A stretch of 30,630 nucleotides of DNA, taken from a virus. The notes beneath the pieces are model-generated. The model did not search any database and was not told the DNA's origin. It saw only the letters and a list, made by a program, of their open reading frames with translations. Both the position numbers and the translations under genes were made by a program. This document shows, in pieces, positions 1 through 30,630 of this stretch. The stretch covers positions 1 through 30,630 of the IMG/VR virus record IMGVR_UViG_3300025759_000435, one strand, 5' to 3'. Every line of letters begins with the position of its first letter. The first letter of the stretch is position 1.

Positions 1-235
1 GTACTACCTCCGTCATACGCTCAAAGGTGAGGTCGAGCATGTGAGTCGTGGCGGCGGCCATGGCTTCGAGTCTGGTGGGGCAGATGCCGTGCACCTCGAC
101 CGCGCCCCCGAGCTCGCAGACCTTCCACTGCCAGCAGTCGCCGGCGGGTCGGACCTCGGCGTCTCGGTAGGGCTTGCGGAGGGTGCGCTGCCATCCGGTC
201 GCGAAGGCTGCCCACTGCGTCAGGGGCGGCCTCAT
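1..235 (-). CDS. Hypothetical small early protein, truncated by the window edge (left allele)
   Basis: I do not recognise a named family. The readable part starts at ATG 235 and runs off position 1 just before its stop. Its intact counterpart at 29948-30187 has 79 residues. Visible features are a Trp-rich N-terminal part (PPLTQW, ATGWQR) and then a WQWKVC strand, a short Gly-containing strand and a helix rich in Ala (EAMAAATTHMLDL). This looks like a small alpha/beta fold. Its start overlaps the stop of the 43-aa gene by ATGA, so it is translated with the leftward early operon. Against the right-end copy it differs around RPAGDCWQW versus RPVAGGWHW, and otherwise mostly by silent changes. Function is unknown. 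Confidence 0.7.
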   Translation of the reverse strand, partial: MRPPLTQWAAFATGWQRTLRKPYRDAEVRPAGDCWQWKVCELGGAVEVHGICPTRLEAMAAATTHMLDLTFERMTEVV

Positions 236-363
236 GCTGCCACCCCGTACTCACTCGCGCAGTCCCACCAGCCGTCTTCGACGCCCTTGCGGTAGCCGGA
301 GTCGTAGCTGCAGCGGGCGAAGACGGCGGCGAAGATGAGAAGGAAGGCGTAGATGCGGGTCAC
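232..363 (-). CDS. 43-aa membrane-anchored or secreted small protein (left allele)
   Basis: The product begins with a positive residue and a hydrophobic stretch (IYAFLLIFAAVFA, about residues 4-16), then a short polar tail with Cys18, YRKGVEDGWWDC and EYG. This suggests a single N-terminal membrane segment or signal peptide. The residues before Cys18 do not match a good lipobox, so a lipoprotein is not supported. The start in this copy is GTG at 363, overlapping the stop of the upstream 66-aa gene (GTGA). In the right-end copy the same protein starts with ATG. Conservation of the protein across the two variants supports a real gene. No function can be assigned. Confidence 0.6.
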   Translation of the reverse strand: MTRIYAFLLIFAAVFARCSYDSGYRKGVEDGWWDCASEYGVAA

Positions 364-560
364 TTCGCACCCCCCATGCGGTCGATGGTAGCGGCTTCGA
401 CGGCCTCGGCGACGGTAGGGCCGACACCGTGGCCGGTCTTGTCGCGGTTGCGGGCGTAGATGCGGCACGAGAACTGCTGCGTGCGAGTGTTCCAGCGCAG
501 GCGCACCTCGGGCCGGTCCGTCGAGGACAGCAGCCCAACGAGAAGGGACTCCATGCTCAT
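360..560 (-). CDS. 66-aa hypothetical protein, variable cassette present only in the left allele
   Basis: This small protein has basic strand-forming segments (VRLRWNTRTQQFSCRIYAR) followed by GHGVGPTVAEAVEAATIDRM, giving a strand-strand-strand-helix look. Its layout resembles that of the 79-aa protein two genes downstream (strands, then Gly and PT, then an EA..AA helix), which hints at a shared fold; that is inference. The start overlaps the stop of the upstream RHH-like gene (ATGA) and the stop overlaps the next start (GTGA). The right-end variant lacks exactly this gene, 197 bp, with translational coupling preserved on both sides. It is therefore an optional accessory cassette of the early operon. 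Confidence 0.65.
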   Translation of the reverse strand: MSMESLLVGLLSSTDRPEVRLRWNTRTQQFSCRIYARNRDKTGHGVGPTVAEAVEAATIDRMGGAK

Positions 561-742
561 TCTGCACCTGCCATGCGCTGCAGTGCCTGGCGCTCGATGC
601 GGCGGTTCATGTCGGTCAGCACAAGCGGGCCGATGACCTGCTCGAAGTACTGAGGCACCGAGAGCTTCGCCAAGGCGGCGGCGGCCTTGATGTTGTGTTC
701 GAGCTCGGGGCTGAGACGGGGGCGGAAGGTTGCGGTACTCAT
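557..742 (-). CDS. Ribbon-helix-helix-like small DNA-binding protein
   Basis: The 61-residue product starts with a short strand (STATFRPRLSPEL) followed by two helices (LEHNIKAAAALAKL and VPQYFEQVIGPLVL). That is the order expected of an Arc/CopG/MetJ-type ribbon-helix-helix fold, which binds operator DNA as a dimer. It is encoded in the leftward early operon, downstream of the intergenic region that holds paired operator-like repeats at 1301-1328 and 1385-1555. It is the best visible candidate for a protein acting there, which is an inference from position. The start overlaps the stop of the upstream gene by ATGA. No paired toxin is recognised, so an antitoxin role is less likely. Confidence 0.6.
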   Translation of the reverse strand: MSTATFRPRLSPELEHNIKAAAALAKLSVPQYFEQVIGPLVLTDMNRRIERQALQRMAGAE

Positions 743-978
743 CGGGACTGCTCCTTGTGCAGCTCGTCAATGCGAACCATGCCCGTGGCTACTTCGCCGC
801 AGACGTAGTCGCAGGTGCGGTCGAAGCTCTCGATGCGCTTGTAGAGCTCGGCCGGCGAAAGGTCGCGCATGTCGCGCACCAGGTCGGAGTGAAGGTTGCG
901 CAGCTTGTCGAGCTCGGTGGCGAGCTCTTCGAGCGGCGTGAGGGAGGGAAGGTTGAACTGCATGGTGATGGCAGGCAC
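739..978 (-). CDS. Hypothetical helical small early protein
   Basis: This is a 79-aa product when started at GTG 978, which has GAGG six bases upstream overlapping the stop of the preceding 26-aa gene. The internal ATG at 963 would give 74 aa but has no Shine-Dalgarno sequence. The chain is rich in Leu, Glu, Lys and Arg with a regular helical pattern (LEELATELDKLRNL, then AELYKRIESFDRTCDYV), suggesting an all-helical or coiled-coil protein. It overlaps the RHH-like gene downstream by ATGA. No family was recognised. Its place in the early leader suggests a host-takeover or regulatory role, but nothing in the sequence proves this. Confidence 0.6.
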   Translation of the reverse strand: MPAITMQFNLPSLTPLEELATELDKLRNLHSDLVRDMRDLSPAELYKRIESFDRTCDYVCGEVATGMVRIDELHKEQSR

Positions 979-3414: not shown

Positions 3415-5118
3415 ATGCTGACCCCCGAGCAGTGCCAGTCTATCTGCATGCAGCACGACCTCTACTGGGACGGCAGGCGCGACGAGCTGCGCGAGCTGCG
3501 AAACCTGTACATGACGCGCTTCTTCCAGTCGACCGCACCGACGCTCGACGGCATCCTCCGCACCGAGGTGCCCAAGGCCTACGCCGTCGTCGAGAGCTAC
3601 CTCGGCAGCCTCTACGCGAAGAACCCCTCGGTCGAGGTCATGCCCGACATTCGAGGGCGGGGCAACGCGGAGGTTGCCGAGGCGACGGCCAACCAGTACC
3701 TGCTCTCGGTGCGCGAGCAGCTCGAAGACGCCACACGCCTGGCGCTCATCTACCCGGCGGGCTTCATCAAGCTCGCACCGGTGCTCAGTGCCGACCCGTT
3801 GAAGCGGGTGAGCTGTGCTGCCCTCTCGCCTTGGGAGGTCATCGTGGACGCTACCGCGACCTCCTGGGAACAGCAGCGCTACGTCGGGCACGTCTACCTC
3901 ATGCCCCTCCTCGAAGCCTCCGAGCGCTACAGCAGGTCGCCCGAGGAGTTCCGCGCCCGTGCCTACTCGAAGTGGATTGAGTCCACGGGCATCGCCGGCA
4001 AGGACCAGCTGCTGGGGCTGGGTGACCCGACGCAGACGCCGCCAGAAGAACAGTGGGTGCGAGTGGTCGAGCTCTACGACCTGCTCGGGGATGCGCTCGT
4101 GGTGTGGTCCCCGGACTACGCCGACGGCAAGGAGCACCTCTTCGAGGGTGTGCAGGTGCAGGTCGGAGCCCTCGACCCCGAGGCGGCAGCCGACGCAGAC
4201 CGACCCGATGCCGAGCTCGAACACGAGACAACGGGCATCCCCTACAAGACCGCCAACGGTCGCCCGGTCGTCCCCATCATTCCCCTGTACTTCAGTCGCG
4301 ACCCCGACACCCCCCTGCGCGGCTACTCGCTCATCCGTCGGAGCCTCGACCAGTTCCGAGAGCTCAACGTCATGCGCACGTACCAAGCGCAGGGCGTGCG
4401 GCGCATGGCTCGGCAGTGGATGGTACGGGCGGGCTTCCTGTCCGAGGATGGTGCGGCGAAGATTGCGCAGGGGCTGGACGGCGAGTTCATCGAGGTCGAC
4501 CTCCAACCGGGTGCCCCCCTCGAAGGCAACATGATGCCGGTGCCCCAGGCGCCCATCCCTGCCGACATCAGCATCTACTCGCAGACGGTGCAGGCCGACA
4601 TCAACGAGGCAGGCCTTCTCGCCCCATTCACGAGAGGAGAGGTGACCAAGAGCACAGCCACCGAGCAACAGCTTCTCGCGGCCTACACGAGCAGCGAGGT
4701 CGGGCGGATGGCGCGGACCCGAGACGCCGTCATCACCTCCATCGCGAAGACCTACAACATCATGCTCAGTGTGGTGCTCGGAGACGACGCCGAGCCCCTC
4801 GCCTTGCCCAACCCGGTCGGCCCCACCATCCTCTCGGCCGATGACCTCACCGGCGACTTCGGCTACTGGGCAGTCGACGCAGGCACCACCCCGATGAGCG
4901 ACCTTGCGAAGCAGCAGGCACTTGAGCGCCTGGTGCCCCTCCTCGTCCAGCTCGGTGCCGACCCTCGGCAGGTGCTCGGCGAGCTCGTGCGCACGTACCA
5001 GCTCCCCGAGTCCTTCGCCGAGGTTGCCGAGCCTCAACCCGTCGAGCCTTCCGCCCCTACCGGTCCCGCTCCCCTCCCGTTCCCCGCAGCAGGGGGACTC
5101 CCCCCCGAAGGTGCCTGA
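3415..5118 (+). CDS. Portal protein (head-tail connector)
   Basis: At 567 aa, directly after terL, this matches podovirus portals in size and position. The portal forms the dodecameric channel at one capsid vertex, docks the terminase during packaging and carries the tail. Visible family-like segments are the N-terminal helical part with VPKAYAVVESYLGSLYAKNP, LSPWEVIVDATATSWEQ, the PVVPIIPLYFSRDPDTPLRGYSLIRRSLDQF region leading into the long wing helices, and the channel region VTKSTATEQQLLAAYTSSEV. The C-terminus is Pro/Glu-rich and low in complexity. GAGG lies seven bases before ATG 3415. The stop abuts the ATG of the next gene. Confidence 0.88.
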   Translation: MLTPEQCQSICMQHDLYWDGRRDELRELRNLYMTRFFQSTAPTLDGILRTEVPKAYAVVESYLGSLYAKNPSVEVMPDIRGRGNAEVAEATANQYLLSVREQLEDATRLALIYPAGFIKLAPVLSADPLKRVSCAALSPWEVIVDATATSWEQQRYVGHVYLMPLLEASERYSRSPEEFRARAYSKWIESTGIAGKDQLLGLGDPTQTPPEEQWVRVVELYDLLGDALVVWSPDYADGKEHLFEGVQVQVGALDPEAAADADRPDAELEHETTGIPYKTANGRPVVPIIPLYFSRDPDTPLRGYSLIRRSLDQFRELNVMRTYQAQGVRRMARQWMVRAGFLSEDGAAKIAQGLDGEFIEVDLQPGAPLEGNMMPVPQAPIPADISIYSQTVQADINEAGLLAPFTRGEVTKSTATEQQLLAAYTSSEVGRMARTRDAVITSIAKTYNIMLSVVLGDDAEPLALPNPVGPTILSADDLTGDFGYWAVDAGTTPMSDLAKQQALERLVPLLVQLGADPRQVLGELVRTYQLPESFAEVAEPQPVEPSAPTGPAPLPFPAAGGLPPEGA

Positions 5119-26081: not shown

Positions 26082-26554
26082 GTCGTTGTCCTCTCGTCGT
26101 GCAGGGTGAGCACGGCAGCCAGTGCCTGCCATGCGTGCCCGGTGACGCCTTGCAGGGCGGTCGGGCGGGTGTGGTGGAAGTCGTCGGGGTCGAGGCCGTG
26201 CTGCTCGATGACGTTGCGGCGAATCTCCGAGTCGCTCTTGCCGAGGTAGGCCTTGACGTCCTTGCGGTGCACCGGCACCGTCTGCAGCCCGAGCAGCTCA
26301 GCATGTTCGAGCAGTCGGCCTACGACGACGGTGGTGTGGATGACCGACCAGGACGGCGGCCCCGGATGCGTGTGCTCGATGGCTACAACCGCCTCGTCGG
26401 TGTGCAGCTCGTGCAGGGTGGTGCGCACCTCTTCGAGGGTGAGCTTGTTGAAGGCGGCGACGACCTTGCCCGCCCCATCAGCCTCGACCACGTAGACGAC
26501 TACACCGGAGTGAGTCGGCCCCGGGTCGATGCCGATGTAGAGGTCGGAGGGCAT
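26078..26554 (-). CDS. RuvC-like Holliday-junction endonuclease
   Basis: The 158-aa protein has an RNase-H-like N-terminus (YIGIDPGPTHSGVVVY with Asp10), a second acidic motif VVAIEHTHPG (Glu60) and the RuvC-type middle region VVVGRLLEHAELLGLQTVPV then RKDVKAYLGK. RuvC relatives cut four-way junctions made during recombination or replication. The C-terminal motif, normally D..DALA, reads GHAWQALAAVL (139-149), so the last two acidic residues are not in place. His140, or Asp residues nearby (121-125), may substitute. ATG 26554 overlaps the erf stop by one base (TGATG). The genes on both sides encode recombination enzymes. Confidence 0.78.
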   Translation of the reverse strand: MPSDLYIGIDPGPTHSGVVVYVVEADGAGKVVAAFNKLTLEEVRTTLHELHTDEAVVAIEHTHPGPPSWSVIHTTVVVGRLLEHAELLGLQTVPVHRKDVKAYLGKSDSEIRRNVIEQHGLDPDDFHHTRPTALQGVTGHAWQALAAVLTLHDERTTT

Positions 26555-27183
26555 CACGCCTCGGACTCGGCGGCAGCCTTGACCGCTGCGATGCCGTTGC
26601 CGTGCGTGAGCCACTCGTGGCACCGGTTGAGCTGTGCCGGGTTGAGGTTGGCGAGGGAGGCGCGCCCCATGGACTTCGCCCACTTGTCGAAGTGGTCGAC
26701 GGTGAGCTTCTGCGCGCGGAGCTCGGCGACGATGAGGGCTCGCCAGTCCTTCGTCGGGGGCACCTGGCGCTTCGACGGGCGGGCGCTCGCTGCGTTGCCG
26801 TCATCGTCTTCGACGGGCAGTCCCATGATGGCCTGCAGGCTGTAGCGGCGAAGGTAGGTGATGGCGCTGCCGACGGCCTGCGCATCGTTCTTCTTGCCCA
26901 TGGGCGTCGCTACAGTGCTCGACACCATCTGCCCGCTGCTGTGCAGGAGCACGGTGGTGAGCTGTACCTGCGTCTCGTCCAGGTGCGGCATCTGCAGCAC
27001 TCCGACGCCGTGCTCATTCAGCACGGGGATGACGGCATCGATGACGGCCGAGAGGGAGGCGTAGCTGCTGCGAAAGTGCGGGTTCTTGCTGTCCTTGACG
27101 GCGAAGCCCATGGCGGCCTGAGCCTTGATGAGGGCGGCGAAGAGGTCGGCGCGGTCGTCGGTGAAGCTGAAGAGTTCAAACAT
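26554..27183 (-). CDS. erf: ERF-family single-strand annealing recombinase
   Basis: The 209-aa protein shows the ERF superfamily core: LFAALIKAQAAMGFAVKDSK then NPHFRSSYASLSAVIDAVIP (34-53), LNEHGVGVLQ, VQLTTVLLHSSGQMVSSTV, and GSAITYLRRYSLQAIMGLP followed by VEDDDGN (105-130). P22 Erf and relatives anneal complementary single strands. In phages they promote circularisation and concatemer formation by recombination. The C-terminal part (about 135-209) has a helical domain with ALIVAELRAQKLTVDHFDKW and LNPAQLNRCHEWL. ATG 27183 has GAGAGGACA upstream overlapping the primase-helicase stop. It pairs functionally with the exonuclease and SSB downstream. Confidence 0.92.
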   Translation of the reverse strand: MFELFSFTDDRADLFAALIKAQAAMGFAVKDSKNPHFRSSYASLSAVIDAVIPVLNEHGVGVLQMPHLDETQVQLTTVLLHSSGQMVSSTVATPMGKKNDAQAVGSAITYLRRYSLQAIMGLPVEDDDGNAASARPSKRQVPPTKDWRALIVAELRAQKLTVDHFDKWAKSMGRASLANLNPAQLNRCHEWLTHGNGIAAVKAAAESEA

Positions 27184-27193
27184 GGGTGTCCTC

Positions 27194-29464
27194 TCATGTC
27201 GTGGGGGTGTTGTGCTCGAAGTCCGAGCGGGTGAGTCGCTTGATTGCGAGGATGCCGGTGCCGTTGCCTTCGGGCATCCCGTCCTTGAAGTAGTAGGTGA
27301 CGCCTGCGCTGCGATACCTTGTAAACCCAACCGAGTGCAGTGCGGAGGACAAAGAAAGTCCGAAACGTTGCACGCTTAGGTTGTGGTCAATGGCAGAGGC
27401 AAACTCGGCAACGGTGAACCGGTTGCGCTTGCCGCCCTTGTTGGCCTCATGGGCGCAGCTTGCACACTGGGTGAACCAGTCGAGGTACTGGAAGACGCCG
27501 TTGGCCTTGCGGTTCCAGCGGCTTTCCTCCTTCGTGAGCCACCACTGCTCGCCATCCTGGAACCGCTTGTAGGCCTCGGCGAGCAGCTGGTCGCGGTACT
27601 TGCGCAGCCAGTCGAGGTTCGCGCTCTCGCCCGTGCAGGCGACAACCCAGTAGCGTCGGCTTCCGGTGCGGTCGCGCAGAACGTCCCACTCGTTCGAGGT
27701 CATCGTGATGACGGTGTGCCGGCGGTACGTGCGCATCTTGCGCCCGAAGGGCGGGCGGAAGCGGTCGACGGCCGAGGTGATGAAGGCCTTGCGCGTCTCC
27801 TGGTCTGCGTTCGAGCTTCCTGCCATCTCGGCGTCTTCGTAGATGAGGGCGCTGTAGAGCTGCAAGTAGCAGTCCTTGTCCTTGATGTTGAAGCGGGTGT
27901 CGCTGTAGAGCTCGGACTGCCCCGGCCAGTTCGCCCACTCTCGCCACACCGACGACTTGCCCCAGCCCTGGGGACCGGTGAGCAACATGCAGGTGTGGAG
28001 CTGACAGCCGGGCGAGAAGAGGCGAGCCATGAGGCCGATGCACCACTTCGAGGCATACGTGCGGTAGATGGGCAGGTCTTCGGCACCGCACACTTCGAGA
28101 AGCCAGCGGTCAATCCGAGGGCAGCCGTCCCATTCGAGCGACTTGACGTAGTCCTGCACGGGGTTGCGAGAGGCCTGACGGCAGACGAACTCGACGGCCC
28201 CGAAGAGCAGCTCGCGCCCGACGCGCCAGTGCCAGTCGTAGGCCAGTTCCATGTGGGTGATCACGCGCACCCAAATGCCGTCGTCTACTGCGTCATGCCC
28301 ATCCATCTCGCACTGCCGAAACAAATCGAACCAGAGACTGAAGCTGGCGTCATGCGTCAGCATGCGGTGCAGGTTGCTGACCGAGTTCTTGATGCGGCCG
28401 GGGCTGCCGTCGCGCTTCGCCGGCTCTCGGTGCAGCTCCACCAGGCCGGGCTTGCTCGCAGGCCGGTAGCTGTTCCAGTAGGTGCGCGCCTGGGGGCCGG
28501 AGTAGTAGCGGGCGCGGCCGTCTGCCTCTCGATGGAAGAAGCCACTGCCGACGCTACTGCCGCCGAAGGGGCAGATGACCTTGAGGCGCTCCCCGGGTGC
28601 GAGGGCGTCTGCCATCTGCTGCCATGACCGCCCATCGCTGAGACGCTGGGACCGGAAGTCGATGTCGACCGAGGTTGCCTGCCGAGGCCGGCGACGCTTC
28701 GGGACGACGTCCGTCTTGGCTCTGGCCTTGTCGTTGTCGGTGAGCTGTGCCTGCCGCACCCACTGCACCCGAAGACGGCCGATGGCGTCGGAGTCGAGAA
28801 CGGTGTCGGAGGCGGCTACCACCTCGACGGGCTGCACCCGGAATGAACACTTCGTGTTCATGCTGCCCGGTGCACGGGCGAGGCGGGCGCCTACGTCATG
28901 CGTCCGGTCAAAGGCTCGGTGGTACGTGTTGAGCGGAGGCGAGAAGCCCTGCGCGAGCTCGGCGGCCTGGCGGTTGCACTCGTCCACGATGGCAGCGTGC
29001 ACTTCCTGCAGGGCGGCCTTCTCCTCTCGCATCGCAGGGTGTACGCCGAAGTGGAAGTGCCAGCCCCAACCGCTGCAGATGGTGAGGGTAGGGGGCGCAC
29101 CGACGACCGCTTCGAGGATGCCGCCGATGTCATCGAGGAGCAGACCGAGGAAGGCCTCCCGCTGCTCTTCGGGCATTTGGTACATGTGCGCCTTGCGGTC
29201 GGCAGCCTTGTCGGGCAGCTCCGAGCCTCGGGCAAGTCGGGCGGCGTCCACCAGGCCGAGCATGTCGAGGTCGAAGAAGAGGGAGGTGACCCCCCTGCAG
29301 TTCTCGACCGACCGACCGCGCCCTTGCTTGTCGACGACTCCCCGGAAGAAGAAGCCCGTGCTGATGTAGTCGCCGCCCTTCAGGGACTGCTCGACGTAGC
29401 AGCACCCCTCGGGAGGCTCCGGCCATACGGACCGGACCCGGGTGTCAGGATGCTTCGCGTTCAC
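27194..29464 (-). CDS. Primase-helicase fusion (AEP-like primase plus VapE/SF3-type helicase)
   Basis: The 756-aa protein carries two enzymes needed to start replication. The N-terminal third resembles archaeo-eukaryotic primase/primpol domains: SLFFDLD (61-67, DxD metal site), CSGWGWHFHFG (130-140, sGxGxH motif) and RLARAPGSMNTK (194-205). A short linker with CPFGG near 298-302 follows. The C-terminal part is VapE-like: LEWDGCPRIDRWLLE (443-456), P-loop TGPQGWGKSS (496-505), Walker B-like ALIYEDAEM (539-547), VITMTSNEWDVLRD (585-598) and GSRRYWVV (601-608). It starts at GTG 29464, overlapping the upstream gene by 20 bp. An ATG nearer the domain is not available in this stretch. No DNA polymerase gene is present, so host polymerase must extend its primers. 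Confidence 0.85.
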   Translation of the reverse strand: MNAKHPDTRVRSVWPEPPEGCCYVEQSLKGGDYISTGFFFRGVVDKQGRGRSVENCRGVTSLFFDLDMLGLVDAARLARGSELPDKAADRKAHMYQMPEEQREAFLGLLLDDIGGILEAVVGAPPTLTICSGWGWHFHFGVHPAMREEKAALQEVHAAIVDECNRQAAELAQGFSPPLNTYHRAFDRTHDVGARLARAPGSMNTKCSFRVQPVEVVAASDTVLDSDAIGRLRVQWVRQAQLTDNDKARAKTDVVPKRRRPRQATSVDIDFRSQRLSDGRSWQQMADALAPGERLKVICPFGGSSVGSGFFHREADGRARYYSGPQARTYWNSYRPASKPGLVELHREPAKRDGSPGRIKNSVSNLHRMLTHDASFSLWFDLFRQCEMDGHDAVDDGIWVRVITHMELAYDWHWRVGRELLFGAVEFVCRQASRNPVQDYVKSLEWDGCPRIDRWLLEVCGAEDLPIYRTYASKWCIGLMARLFSPGCQLHTCMLLTGPQGWGKSSVWREWANWPGQSELYSDTRFNIKDKDCYLQLYSALIYEDAEMAGSSNADQETRKAFITSAVDRFRPPFGRKMRTYRRHTVITMTSNEWDVLRDRTGSRRYWVVACTGESANLDWLRKYRDQLLAEAYKRFQDGEQWWLTKEESRWNRKANGVFQYLDWFTQCASCAHEANKGGKRNRFTVAEFASAIDHNLSVQRFGLSLSSALHSVGFTRYRSAGVTYYFKDGMPEGNGTGILAIKRLTRSDFEHNTPTT

Positions 29465-29951
29465 GTTCTTCTCGCATGATGGACCCCACCAAGGTGCGGC
29501 TGAAGTTGAAGGGGATGTCGCCGTCTGCCTTGATGCAGTCGGTGATGACTCTCGCGCTCATGCCCGGGTAGTCGGCGAGGTATTCCCGCACCTCACGAGT
29601 CAGAAGCCACCGTCGCCGAGTGCTGCCCGATGCGATGCCGAGGCGAGCCCGGGCACCCTGCACGGTGGTGACCCCTACGTGTACGCGGAACTTGTCGGTC
29701 ATCATCTGCGCGAGCTCTCGGTCATGGGCATAGGGGTGCTCGTGGATGAGGAGCTCGACTTGCGCAGCAATGAAGCCGGCCGGGCGGGTGAGGCCCATCT
29801 TGTACCAGCGGAAGCTGAGACCAGACGGAGCGATACCAAGGGCAAGGGCCGCCTCGGTCATCACTTCGGCCTTCGCTCGCAGCCCAATGGCCTCGTCGTA
29901 GCGTTGCCGCCACTCGACCGTCTGCTTGACCTGGTCCTTGCTGAGCCTCAT
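29445..29951 (-). CDS. Multi-HTH DNA-binding protein upstream of the primase-helicase
   Basis: The 168-aa product shows three helix-turn-helix-like stretches: AALALGIAPSGLSFRWYKMG (about 34-53), DRELAQMMTDKFRVHVGV with TTVQGARARLGIA (about 77-107), and LTREVREYLADYPGMSARV with ITDCIKADG, then NFSRTLVGSIM (about 116-160). The last two share a pattern: acidic helix, a turn with M/V, then a recognition-like helix ending in R or M. Direct linkage to the primase-helicase and the spaced repeats at the operon start make it a candidate origin-binding or regulatory protein, by inference. The ATG overlaps the upstream 79-aa gene stop (ATGA). Confidence 0.6.
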   Translation of the reverse strand: MRLSKDQVKQTVEWRQRYDEAIGLRAKAEVMTEAALALGIAPSGLSFRWYKMGLTRPAGFIAAQVELLIHEHPYAHDRELAQMMTDKFRVHVGVTTVQGARARLGIASGSTRRRWLLTREVREYLADYPGMSARVITDCIKADGDIPFNFSRTLVGSIMREEREREAS

Positions 29952-30187
29952 GGTACTACCTCCGTCATACGCTCAAAGGTGAGGTCGAGCATGTGAGTCG
30001 TGGCGGCGGCCATGGCTTCGAGTCTGGTGGGGCAGATGCCGTGCACCTCGACCGCGCCCCCGAGCTCGCAGACCTTCCAGTGCCACCCGCCGGCGACGGG
30101 GCGCACCTCGGCGTCTCGGTAGGGCTTGCGGAGGGTGCGCTGCCATCCGGTCGCGAATGCTGCCCACTGCGTCAGGGGCGGTCTCAT
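29948..30187 (-). CDS. Hypothetical 79-aa small early protein, complete (right allele)
   Basis: This is the full-length counterpart of the truncated gene at 1-235. Its stop overlaps the start of the multi-HTH gene (ATGA), and its start overlaps the stop of the 102-aa gene (ATGA), while in the left allele the same start overlaps the 43-aa gene. The chain has PPLTQWAAFATGWQR, YRDAEV, WHWKVCELGG and a final Ala-rich helix. The arrangement of strands, Gly, PT and an EA..AA helix is similar to the 66-aa protein at 360-560. No function was recognised. Silent differences between the alleles support coding under purifying selection. Confidence 0.72.
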   Translation of the reverse strand: MRPPLTQWAAFATGWQRTLRKPYRDAEVRPVAGGWHWKVCELGGAVEVHGICPTRLEAMAAATTHMLDLTFERMTEVVP

Positions 30188-30492
30188 GCCTCACCCCCCG
30201 GCCACCGACCGATCGCAGCGGCGACGCTAATGCACGCGCGCCCGATGTTTGCGGCCCGTCCATGCAAGCCAGCAACCTGCACGATTGTCGTTCGCCCGTC
30301 TCCACCGACGACGACGACCGGCCCTCCAAGCAGCCTGAGTAGCCACCCTTCCCACGCCCAGTGGTCGGGGTCCACTCGGTACGCAGCCCATCCAATCAGG
30401 TCGGGGCGACACTTCCAACCCGGAATCGAGACCGCGAGGCTGCCCCACTCGGAGGCGGGAGCGTCAGGGGCGGGCAGTTCGAAGGCGGTCAT
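30184..30492 (-). CDS. 102-aa hypothetical protein, variable cassette present only in the right allele
   Basis: The product contains ASEWGSLAVSIPGWKCRPDL, WAAYRVDPDHWAWEGWLLRL, then GGPVVVVGGDGRTTIVQVAG and ACISVAAAIGR. It is Trp-rich, with a likely beta-strand pair in the second half, and no family was recognised. Its start overlaps the stop of the 43-aa gene and its stop overlaps the start of the 79-aa gene, both by ATGA. In the left allele this 305-bp unit is absent and the 43-aa and 79-aa genes overlap directly by ATGA. It is therefore an exchangeable early cassette. It contains one of only four GATC sites seen in the window. Confidence 0.65.
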   Translation of the reverse strand: MTAFELPAPDAPASEWGSLAVSIPGWKCRPDLIGWAAYRVDPDHWAWEGWLLRLLGGPVVVVGGDGRTTIVQVAGLHGRAANIGRACISVAAAIGRWPGGEA

Positions 30493-30620
30493 GCTGCCAC
30501 CCCGTACTCACTGGCGCAGTCCCACCAGCCGTCTTCGACGCCCTTGCGGTAGCCGGAGTCGTAGCTGCAGCGGGCGAAGACGGCGGCGAAGATGAGAAGG
30601 AAGGCGTAGATGCGGGTCAT
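30489..30620 (-). CDS. 43-aa membrane-anchored or secreted small protein (right allele)
   Basis: This is the second copy of the gene at 232-363, nearly identical in DNA, with at least one silent change (the Ala codon GCC for GCG in DCASEY). Here it starts with ATG at 30620 because the upstream partner is the RHH-like gene, whose stop it overlaps by ATGA. In the left allele the 66-aa cassette intervenes and the start is GTG. The N-terminal hydrophobic segment and Cys-containing polar tail are the same. Confidence 0.6.
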   Translation of the reverse strand: MTRIYAFLLIFAAVFARCSYDSGYRKGVEDGWWDCASEYGVAA

Positions 30621-30630
30621 TCTGCACCTG
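30617..30630 (-). CDS. 3' end of the RHH-like gene (right allele, cut by the window edge)
   Basis: The last 14 bases are identical to 557-570 and encode the final residues and stop of the RHH-like protein. They show that the right end has come round to the same gene order as the left end but without the 66-aa cassette. Confidence 0.6.

Follow-up and report, generated by a model that had tools for sequence, protein, structure and literature searches.

A putative hypervariable early locus with two gene-cassette slots and two apparently coexisting alleles in an unclassified tailed phage of about 30 kb

The nin region of lambdoid phages (lambda, P22, and L) is composed of packed, small, nonessential early genes, which are joined by ATGA stop/start overlaps, variable in content, and mosaic (PMC8022706). 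Short homologies at gene borders have been proposed as recombination sites in lambdoid phages (Susskind and Botstein 1978; Clark et al. 2001, as cited in PMC3029335). Between mycobacteriophages Island3 and Brujita, the inserted gene 68 repeats the last 18 residues, i.e., approximately 50 bp, of the upstream gene 67 (Pope et al. 2011, PMC3029335). The mobile regulatory cassettes of T4-type phages, PeSLs, are described as having repeated borders that aid modular gene shuffling (Arbiol et al. 2010, as cited in PMC4503421). It has long been asked whether mosaicism at the junctions of phage genes arises through short homology at the borders or through joining at random followed by selection.

The window analyzed here is the whole of a 30,630-bp virus record, i.e., IMGVR_UViG_3300025759_000435, and its features are listed in Table 1. 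The locus at its ends is probably a hypervariable part of the early operon in an unclassified tailed phage of approximately 30 kb with a circular genome map. Two slots flank a conserved 43-aa gene, and each holds zero to three small single-gene cassettes with RTGA (start/stop) overlaps, i.e., ATGA or GTGA. As in the nin region, these overlaps prevail. In 12 slot-bearing maps, 47 of the 50 joins before the fixed primase join were 4-bp RTGA overlaps, as given by an ORF caller that favors 4-bp overlaps. The nin region lies between the replication genes and a Q-type antiterminator, whereas the slots here are upstream of a VapE primase in an unrelated phage of approximately 30 kb. No nin genes and no Q-type antiterminator were recognized among the proteins scanned. 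The 80-aa cassette behind the HicB-like gene of two relatives, L015 and L033, has almost the same arrangement as Island3 gp67/68. Island3 is a single case, whereas here several cassettes and both kinds of gene end (5' and 3') are involved, and two alleles apparently coexist in the same sample. Unlike the lambdoid boundary sequences as cited above, the shared sequence here is made up of the genes' own terminal codons, and the cassettes that carry it have unrelated bodies. PeSLs, in the citing account, are promoter/stem-loop elements between genes, whereas 4-bp overlaps leave zero intergenic room. Overlapping genes also leave no attC space, unlike integron cassettes, and no integrase was found among the proteins scanned, which are a subset of the ORFs. 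The route of gene shuffling is of a broadly known kind, and the family is an unusually rich case. Its join types stand side by side, i.e., RTGA only, ribosome-site tails, shared ends of 23-29 bp, and in-gene hybrids, and, judging from the closeness of the relatives and the apparent coexistence of alleles, the events are recent.

Table 1. Features of the window
Feature	Position	Strand	Remarks
127-bp exact repeat, left copy	1..127		Start of left-end allele; matches 29953-30079
127-bp exact repeat, second copy	29953..30079		Most likely the graph fork vertex
79-aa gene, allele A copy	1..235	-	Last codons at 29948-29952; conserved in L004, L012, L013, L014, L035, L040
43-aa gene, allele A, GTG start	232..363	-	Conserved linker between slot 1 and slot 2
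Slot 1 cassette, allele A, 66-aa protein	360..560	-	Same slot in L012, L031
HicB-like gene, 61 aa	557..742	-	3' end adjoining slot 1 hyperconserved; copied at end of unrelated L015/L033 cassette
79-aa gene upstream of HicB-like gene	739..978	-	
168-aa gene downstream of slots	29445..29951	-	Family in L004, L012-L015, L025
79-aa gene, allele B	29948..30187	-	9 codon differences from allele A
Slot 2 cassette, allele B, 102-aa protein, family c17	30184..30492	-	Relatives in slot 1 (L040, L042) and slot 2 (L014, L031)
43-aa gene, allele B, ATG start	30489..30620	-	
HicB-like gene last codons, allele B	30617..30630	-	
VapE-type primase/helicase	27194..29464	-	Fixed downstream gene; Pfam VapE-like 1.5e-62; PHROGs DNA helicase 2.4e-64
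ERF single-strand annealing protein, candidate recombinase	26554..27330	-	Pfam ERF 3.2e-23; PHROGs 4.8e-42

The window was compared with itself by blastn. Positions 1-237 matched 29953-30189 at 95.8% (E 1e-107), and 225-371 matched 30484-30628 at 96.6% (E 1e-64). At the sequence level, 1-570 and 29953-30630 were confirmed as two alleles of one early locus, i.e., A at the left end and B at the right end. On the minus strand, the gene order of allele A is 79 aa, HicB-like 61 aa, 66 aa, 43 aa (GTG), 79 aa, 168 aa, and primase, and that of allele B is HicB-like, 43 aa (ATG), 102 aa, 79 aa, 168 aa, and primase. From the HicB-like gene to the 168-aa gene, every join in both alleles is a 4-bp overlap, ATGA or GTGA (TCAT or TCAC on the given strand). 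This coupling had been described in an earlier, sequence-only reading of the window, and its net length differences and start-codon switch were reproduced. The right allele has an extra gene of 309 nt, i.e., a net gain of 305 bp, and lacks the 201-nt gene of the left allele, i.e., a net loss of 197 bp, while the 43-aa gene switches its start from GTG on the left to ATG on the right. The same reading called most other differences silent, which was half right. When the start codon was set aside, 10 codons differed between A and B; five of the differences are silent and five change the amino acid, the latter in a single block at codons 31-36 of the 79-aa gene. The right end meets the left again at 558 with 13 exact bases (30618-30630 = 558-570), and the crossover between A and B can be placed only within TGA. 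The tail of the 66-aa gene, CGCATGGGGGGTGCGAAGTGA, resembles that of the HicB-like gene, CGCATGGCAGGTGCAGAATGA.

Relatives were searched in IMG/VR. Eighteen loci of 75-81% identity were found with the primase as query, 22 with a primase profile, and 34 with the HicB-like family. In the gene maps, the HicB-like, 43-aa, 79-aa, and 168-aa genes are conserved in a nearer group of approximately 12 contigs. Slot 1 is the border of the HicB-like and 43-aa genes, slot 2 is the border of the 43-aa and 79-aa genes, and both hold different genes among the relatives. Slot 1 is occupied by the 66-aa gene in allele A, L012, and L031; by a 104-aa gene in L013, L014, and L032; by 104-aa and 81-aa genes in L035; by an 80-aa gene in L015 and L033; by 95-aa and 50-aa genes in L004, L005, and L025; and by 129-aa, 134-aa, and 93-aa genes in L040. 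It is empty in allele B. Slot 2 is empty in allele A, L035, and L040, and holds the 102-aa family c17 in allele B and L031, an HTH gene of 76 aa in L012, an HNH-like gene of 139 aa in L013, the HTH gene plus c17 in L014, and an 89-aa gene in L015 and L033. The sequence-only reading had suggested a comparison of related phages for other genes at these two slots, and about a dozen small genes in reassorting combinations were found there in the nearer relatives. The single-gene cassette differences at start/stop overlaps, which it had noticed between the window ends, recur at the same places.

Because c17 is found in slot 1 (L040 and L042) as well as in slot 2 (allele B, L014, and L031), a cassette can change slots. 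The slots also reassort, since the slot 1 gene of L014 is that of L013 and one of its slot 2 genes is that of L012. L012 and L013 are the closest pair among L012-L014, yet both of their slots differ. These two genomes are approximately 90-93% identical over approximately 8 kb on each side, and at both slots their alignment ends no more than 4 bp from the gene borders. All four states of the 66-aa gene and c17 were present, i.e., both in L031, only the 66-aa gene in allele A and L012, only c17 in allele B and L014, and neither in L013. Outside the locus, an 11.8-kb stretch of L031 is collinear with the window, with 91.5% identity. L031, a close relative with both families, suggests that each of the alleles A and B may have arisen from an ancestor with two cassettes by the loss of one gene, but gain is equally parsimonious. 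In L018 and L010, an HNH-like cassette and the 66-aa family lie on the upstream side of the HicB-like gene, and cassettes are thus accepted at more than two positions.

The 104-aa cassettes of L013 and L014 showed a synonymous identity of 0.89, against 0.72 in the primases (p=2e-4). A recent transfer of the 66-aa gene between the window phage and L012 (88% nucleotide identity) was rejected, as the synonymous identity was 0.69 against 0.65 in the primase (p=0.48). In L014, a gap of approximately 77 bp (3691-3768) separates the HTH and c17 cassettes, unlike the 4-bp joins elsewhere, and perhaps contains a tiny gene or some remnant. In L004 (9293-10020), the 168-aa and 79-aa genes precede the primase in the opposite order to that found in the other phages.

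The 168-aa protein as a single query found no relatives, and its family alignment hit seven loci, all on contigs already known, with zero new slot states. An exact 38-bp pattern from the 43-aa gene had no match in the viral contigs, a set from which near-identical records may be missing. The primase alignment had no match in 84,980 prokaryote genomes, and a host or prophage was therefore not identified. Among phage records, the window DNA and the 66-aa and c17 cassettes had no match, and the primase matched only under 60% identity.

The 61-aa HicB-like protein scored 20.6 bits with PF05534 (HicB), just under the Pfam cut-off of 21. The structure model of the 66-aa cassette is alpha-beta3-alpha (pLDDT 74.7), with weak matches to dsRBD/ABA-sandwich-like folds (E 0.0017-0.03). 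The model of the 102-aa cassette was unusable (pLDDT 45.7). The other cassettes are HTH-like, HNH-like, DUF1653, or membrane proteins, or have no match, and no cassette matched known anti-defence families in Pfam or PHROGs. The locus suggests rapid turnover within a pool of small early genes, a kind of set that the sequence-only reading had regarded as the usual place for anti-host or anti-defence functions. These genes are candidates for host-takeover and anti-defence screening.

Short homology at the borders between otherwise unrelated modules was present in the relatives. The first 29 bp of the 129-aa and 134-aa genes of L040 are identical (MTALQTPAPE/D), although their bodies are unrelated, and the 89-aa gene of L015 starts with the similar leader MSALQTPAPD. 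Family c17 and an unrelated 93-aa membrane protein of L040 are almost the same in their final 39 bp (ALGRWPGG), with 23 bp exact at the 3' end. A 24-bp sequence near the end of the HicB-like gene, GCACTGCAGCGCATGGCAGGTGCA, is found again near the end of the unrelated 80-aa cassette in slot 1 of L015 and L033, and slot 1 of these phages is thus flanked by direct repeats. All of these exact matches are in register. The sequence-only reading had taken TCA or ATGA to be the only shared bases, which holds strictly for A against B but not for the relatives, with their exact ends of 23-29 bp and crossovers inside genes. In-register terminal matches between non-homologous families averaged 6.9 and 7.8 (maximum 29 and 24), whereas internal segments averaged 2.9 (maximum 9). 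Part of this excess is the common RTGA and the ribosome-site (Shine-Dalgarno) tail, and most non-homologous cassette pairs have 12 bp or less in common at their ends. In codons 55-60 of the HicB-like gene, all synonymous sites are identical in nine phages, against 0.56-0.71 in primase blocks. A 19-bp piece of this tail matched 12 contigs among all viral contigs, all of them known relatives, and occurred twice only in L015 and L033. A match of L073 to the 5'-boundary pattern was discarded as chance, i.e., the end of a tail gene in an unrelated phage.

Footprints of past crossovers were found inside genes. One gene, flanked on both sides by sequence identical in L015 and L033, is a different hybrid of the 79-aa gene in each phage. 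In the L033 hybrid, eight leader codons are followed by the later part of the 79-aa gene. In the L015 hybrid, the leader runs into c17 sequence and then into the same 79-aa gene tail. The breakpoints inside the 79-aa gene have no clear homology on one side. The two hybrids are located at 2155-2406 of L015 and from 6816 onwards of L033, and the phages are otherwise nearly identical. The 50-aa gene of L004 is composed of the first 28 codons of the 79-aa gene and other sequence. The 104-aa gene ends with GGTGCAAAGTGA in L014 and L035 but with GGTGCCTCATGA in L013, and in L035 GGTGCCTCATGA is the tail of the neighboring 81-aa gene. By its sequence, the L013 tail is the product expected if a crossover in GGTGC had deleted the 81-aa gene, an event that would also bring the ATG start of the 43-aa gene. 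This tail swap and the L015/L033 hybrids fit crossover at border sequence, whereas the crossover between A and B is resolved to TGA only.

The gain, loss, and replacement of cassettes would occur by recombination at short common sequence in the gene ends, i.e., RTGA alone, a ribosome-binding-site tail of 5-12 bp, or 23-29 bp of terminal coding sequence. As RTGA marks both borders of every gene, a crossover there would remove or add whole genes and restore both frames and the coupling. The switch of the 43-aa gene between GTG and ATG would follow, since the upstream gene supplies the first base of the start codon. With more sequence in common at the gene ends, homologous annealing would become possible, and the enzyme is probably the ERF annealing protein of the phage itself. 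Erf/RecT/Red-type proteins, including Red-beta, recombine short and diverged homologies better than RecA (PMC3945230). Selection for the coding frame would remove inexact products, and the cassettes probably bring conditional benefits against hosts or rivals. As a whole, this explanation, i.e., two coexisting alleles, slots, short-end recombination, ERF, and frame selection, is considered likely. Against it, long common ends are known from relatives whereas the A/B pair is not resolved beyond TGA, the exactness of RTGA is equally explicable by rare joins made at random and then sorted by selection, and the similarity of the tails is partly a Shine-Dalgarno constraint.

Illegitimate recombination with selection is the strongest competitor and is given somewhat less than an even chance. 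The joins would be random, the survivors would be whole genes with coupled starts, and the RTGA and tail matches would be a by-product of dense gene packing and Shine-Dalgarno needs. The TGA at the A/B crossover, the short common ends of most non-homologous cassette pairs, and the one-sided breakpoints of the 79-aa gene in L015 and L033 all agree with it. However, exact in-register matches of 29, 24, and 23 bp on unrelated cassettes, the excess of terminal matches over internal controls, and the synonymous identity of HicB-like codons 55-60 argue against it. A further step would be to regard the terminal codons as dedicated, interchangeable recombination ends (5' leaders and 3' ribosome-site tails) of a plug-in cassette pool, which reassorts between two slots in living populations by ERF-driven annealing. 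This bolder version is speculative and rather doubtful.

The reason why the contig ends in this locus was also considered. From 1 and 29953, the two ends are identical to the base for 127 bp. Full-length relatives close on themselves at other genome positions by exact end overlaps of 127 bp (G001), 99 bp (G003 and G005), and 141 bp (G006). Values of 127, 99, and 141 are standard k values of de Bruijn assemblers. Exact self-overlaps of k size in the relatives indicate that the family map is circular, i.e., circular or circularly permuted. The 127-bp repeat of k size and these closures together suggest that the window ends are the two arms of a fork in the assembly graph. Most likely, as these sequence signatures strongly indicate, the contig ends at a fork between alleles coexisting in the sampled population. 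From the contig alone, coexistence of A and B in one sample would be the straightforward reading, and closure would yield a genome of 29,952 bp for A and one of 30,060 bp for B. The self-comparison far beyond chance, the 127-bp k signature, and the circularizing relatives bear out the sequence-only reading that the ends are alleles of one locus. Contig ends within the locus were weakly enriched in a post hoc count (5 against 1.5 expected, p=0.02).

The right end may instead belong to a different, related phage, which the assembler joined to this genome. The join is placed at the exact 127-bp repeat, where an assembler can switch, and one contig is the sole basis of the pair. Such a chimera is unlikely, and even a chimera would leave two alleles of one locus, from very close phages in the same sample, with shared genes approximately 96% identical. 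The same two-slot variation is also present between intact relatives. An unrelated phage as the source of the right end, a case raised in the sequence-only reading, is unlikely on the same identity, and L031 carries both the 66-aa gene and the 102-aa family.

Other contig ends were observed in the family. The ends of G008 (30,154 bp), i.e., L067 and L068, its first and last 3 kb, have a common stretch of 90 bp at 94% and no exact overlap; G008 is possibly another contig ended by population variation. The contig end of L033 has exactly 77 bp in common with L015. This was not relied on as a k=77 signature, as L013, from the same sample, closes at 99 bp.

Homing, in which an HNH nuclease cassette cuts slots lacking it and repair copies cassettes between phages, is very unlikely. 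L013 has an HNH-like gene in slot 2, and L010 and L018 have one upstream of their early genes, but such a gene is absent from the slots of both window alleles and of most relatives, and most cassettes are not nucleases. Least probable of all is a true duplication, in which a single linear genome would carry a diverged copy of the locus at either end. Both copies are present in the contig as given, and the record is classed as linear by IMG/VR, but the repeat is exactly 127 bp long, the HicB-like gene is single in each relative record, and relatives of 29.9-30.6 kb form closed circles at other places.

In the window, the region separating the divergent early and late operons (1378-1562) carries a 67-nt imperfect inverted repeat (76%) composed of repeated CCCTGCACTCT / AGAGTGCAGGG motifs. 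This region looks like an operator or origin region, and a similar stretch is found in L031. Just upstream of the early operon (1301-1334), two tandem near-repeats of 17 bp, TGGGACACTTGTACCAT / TGGGACACTTGGCCCAC, were observed.
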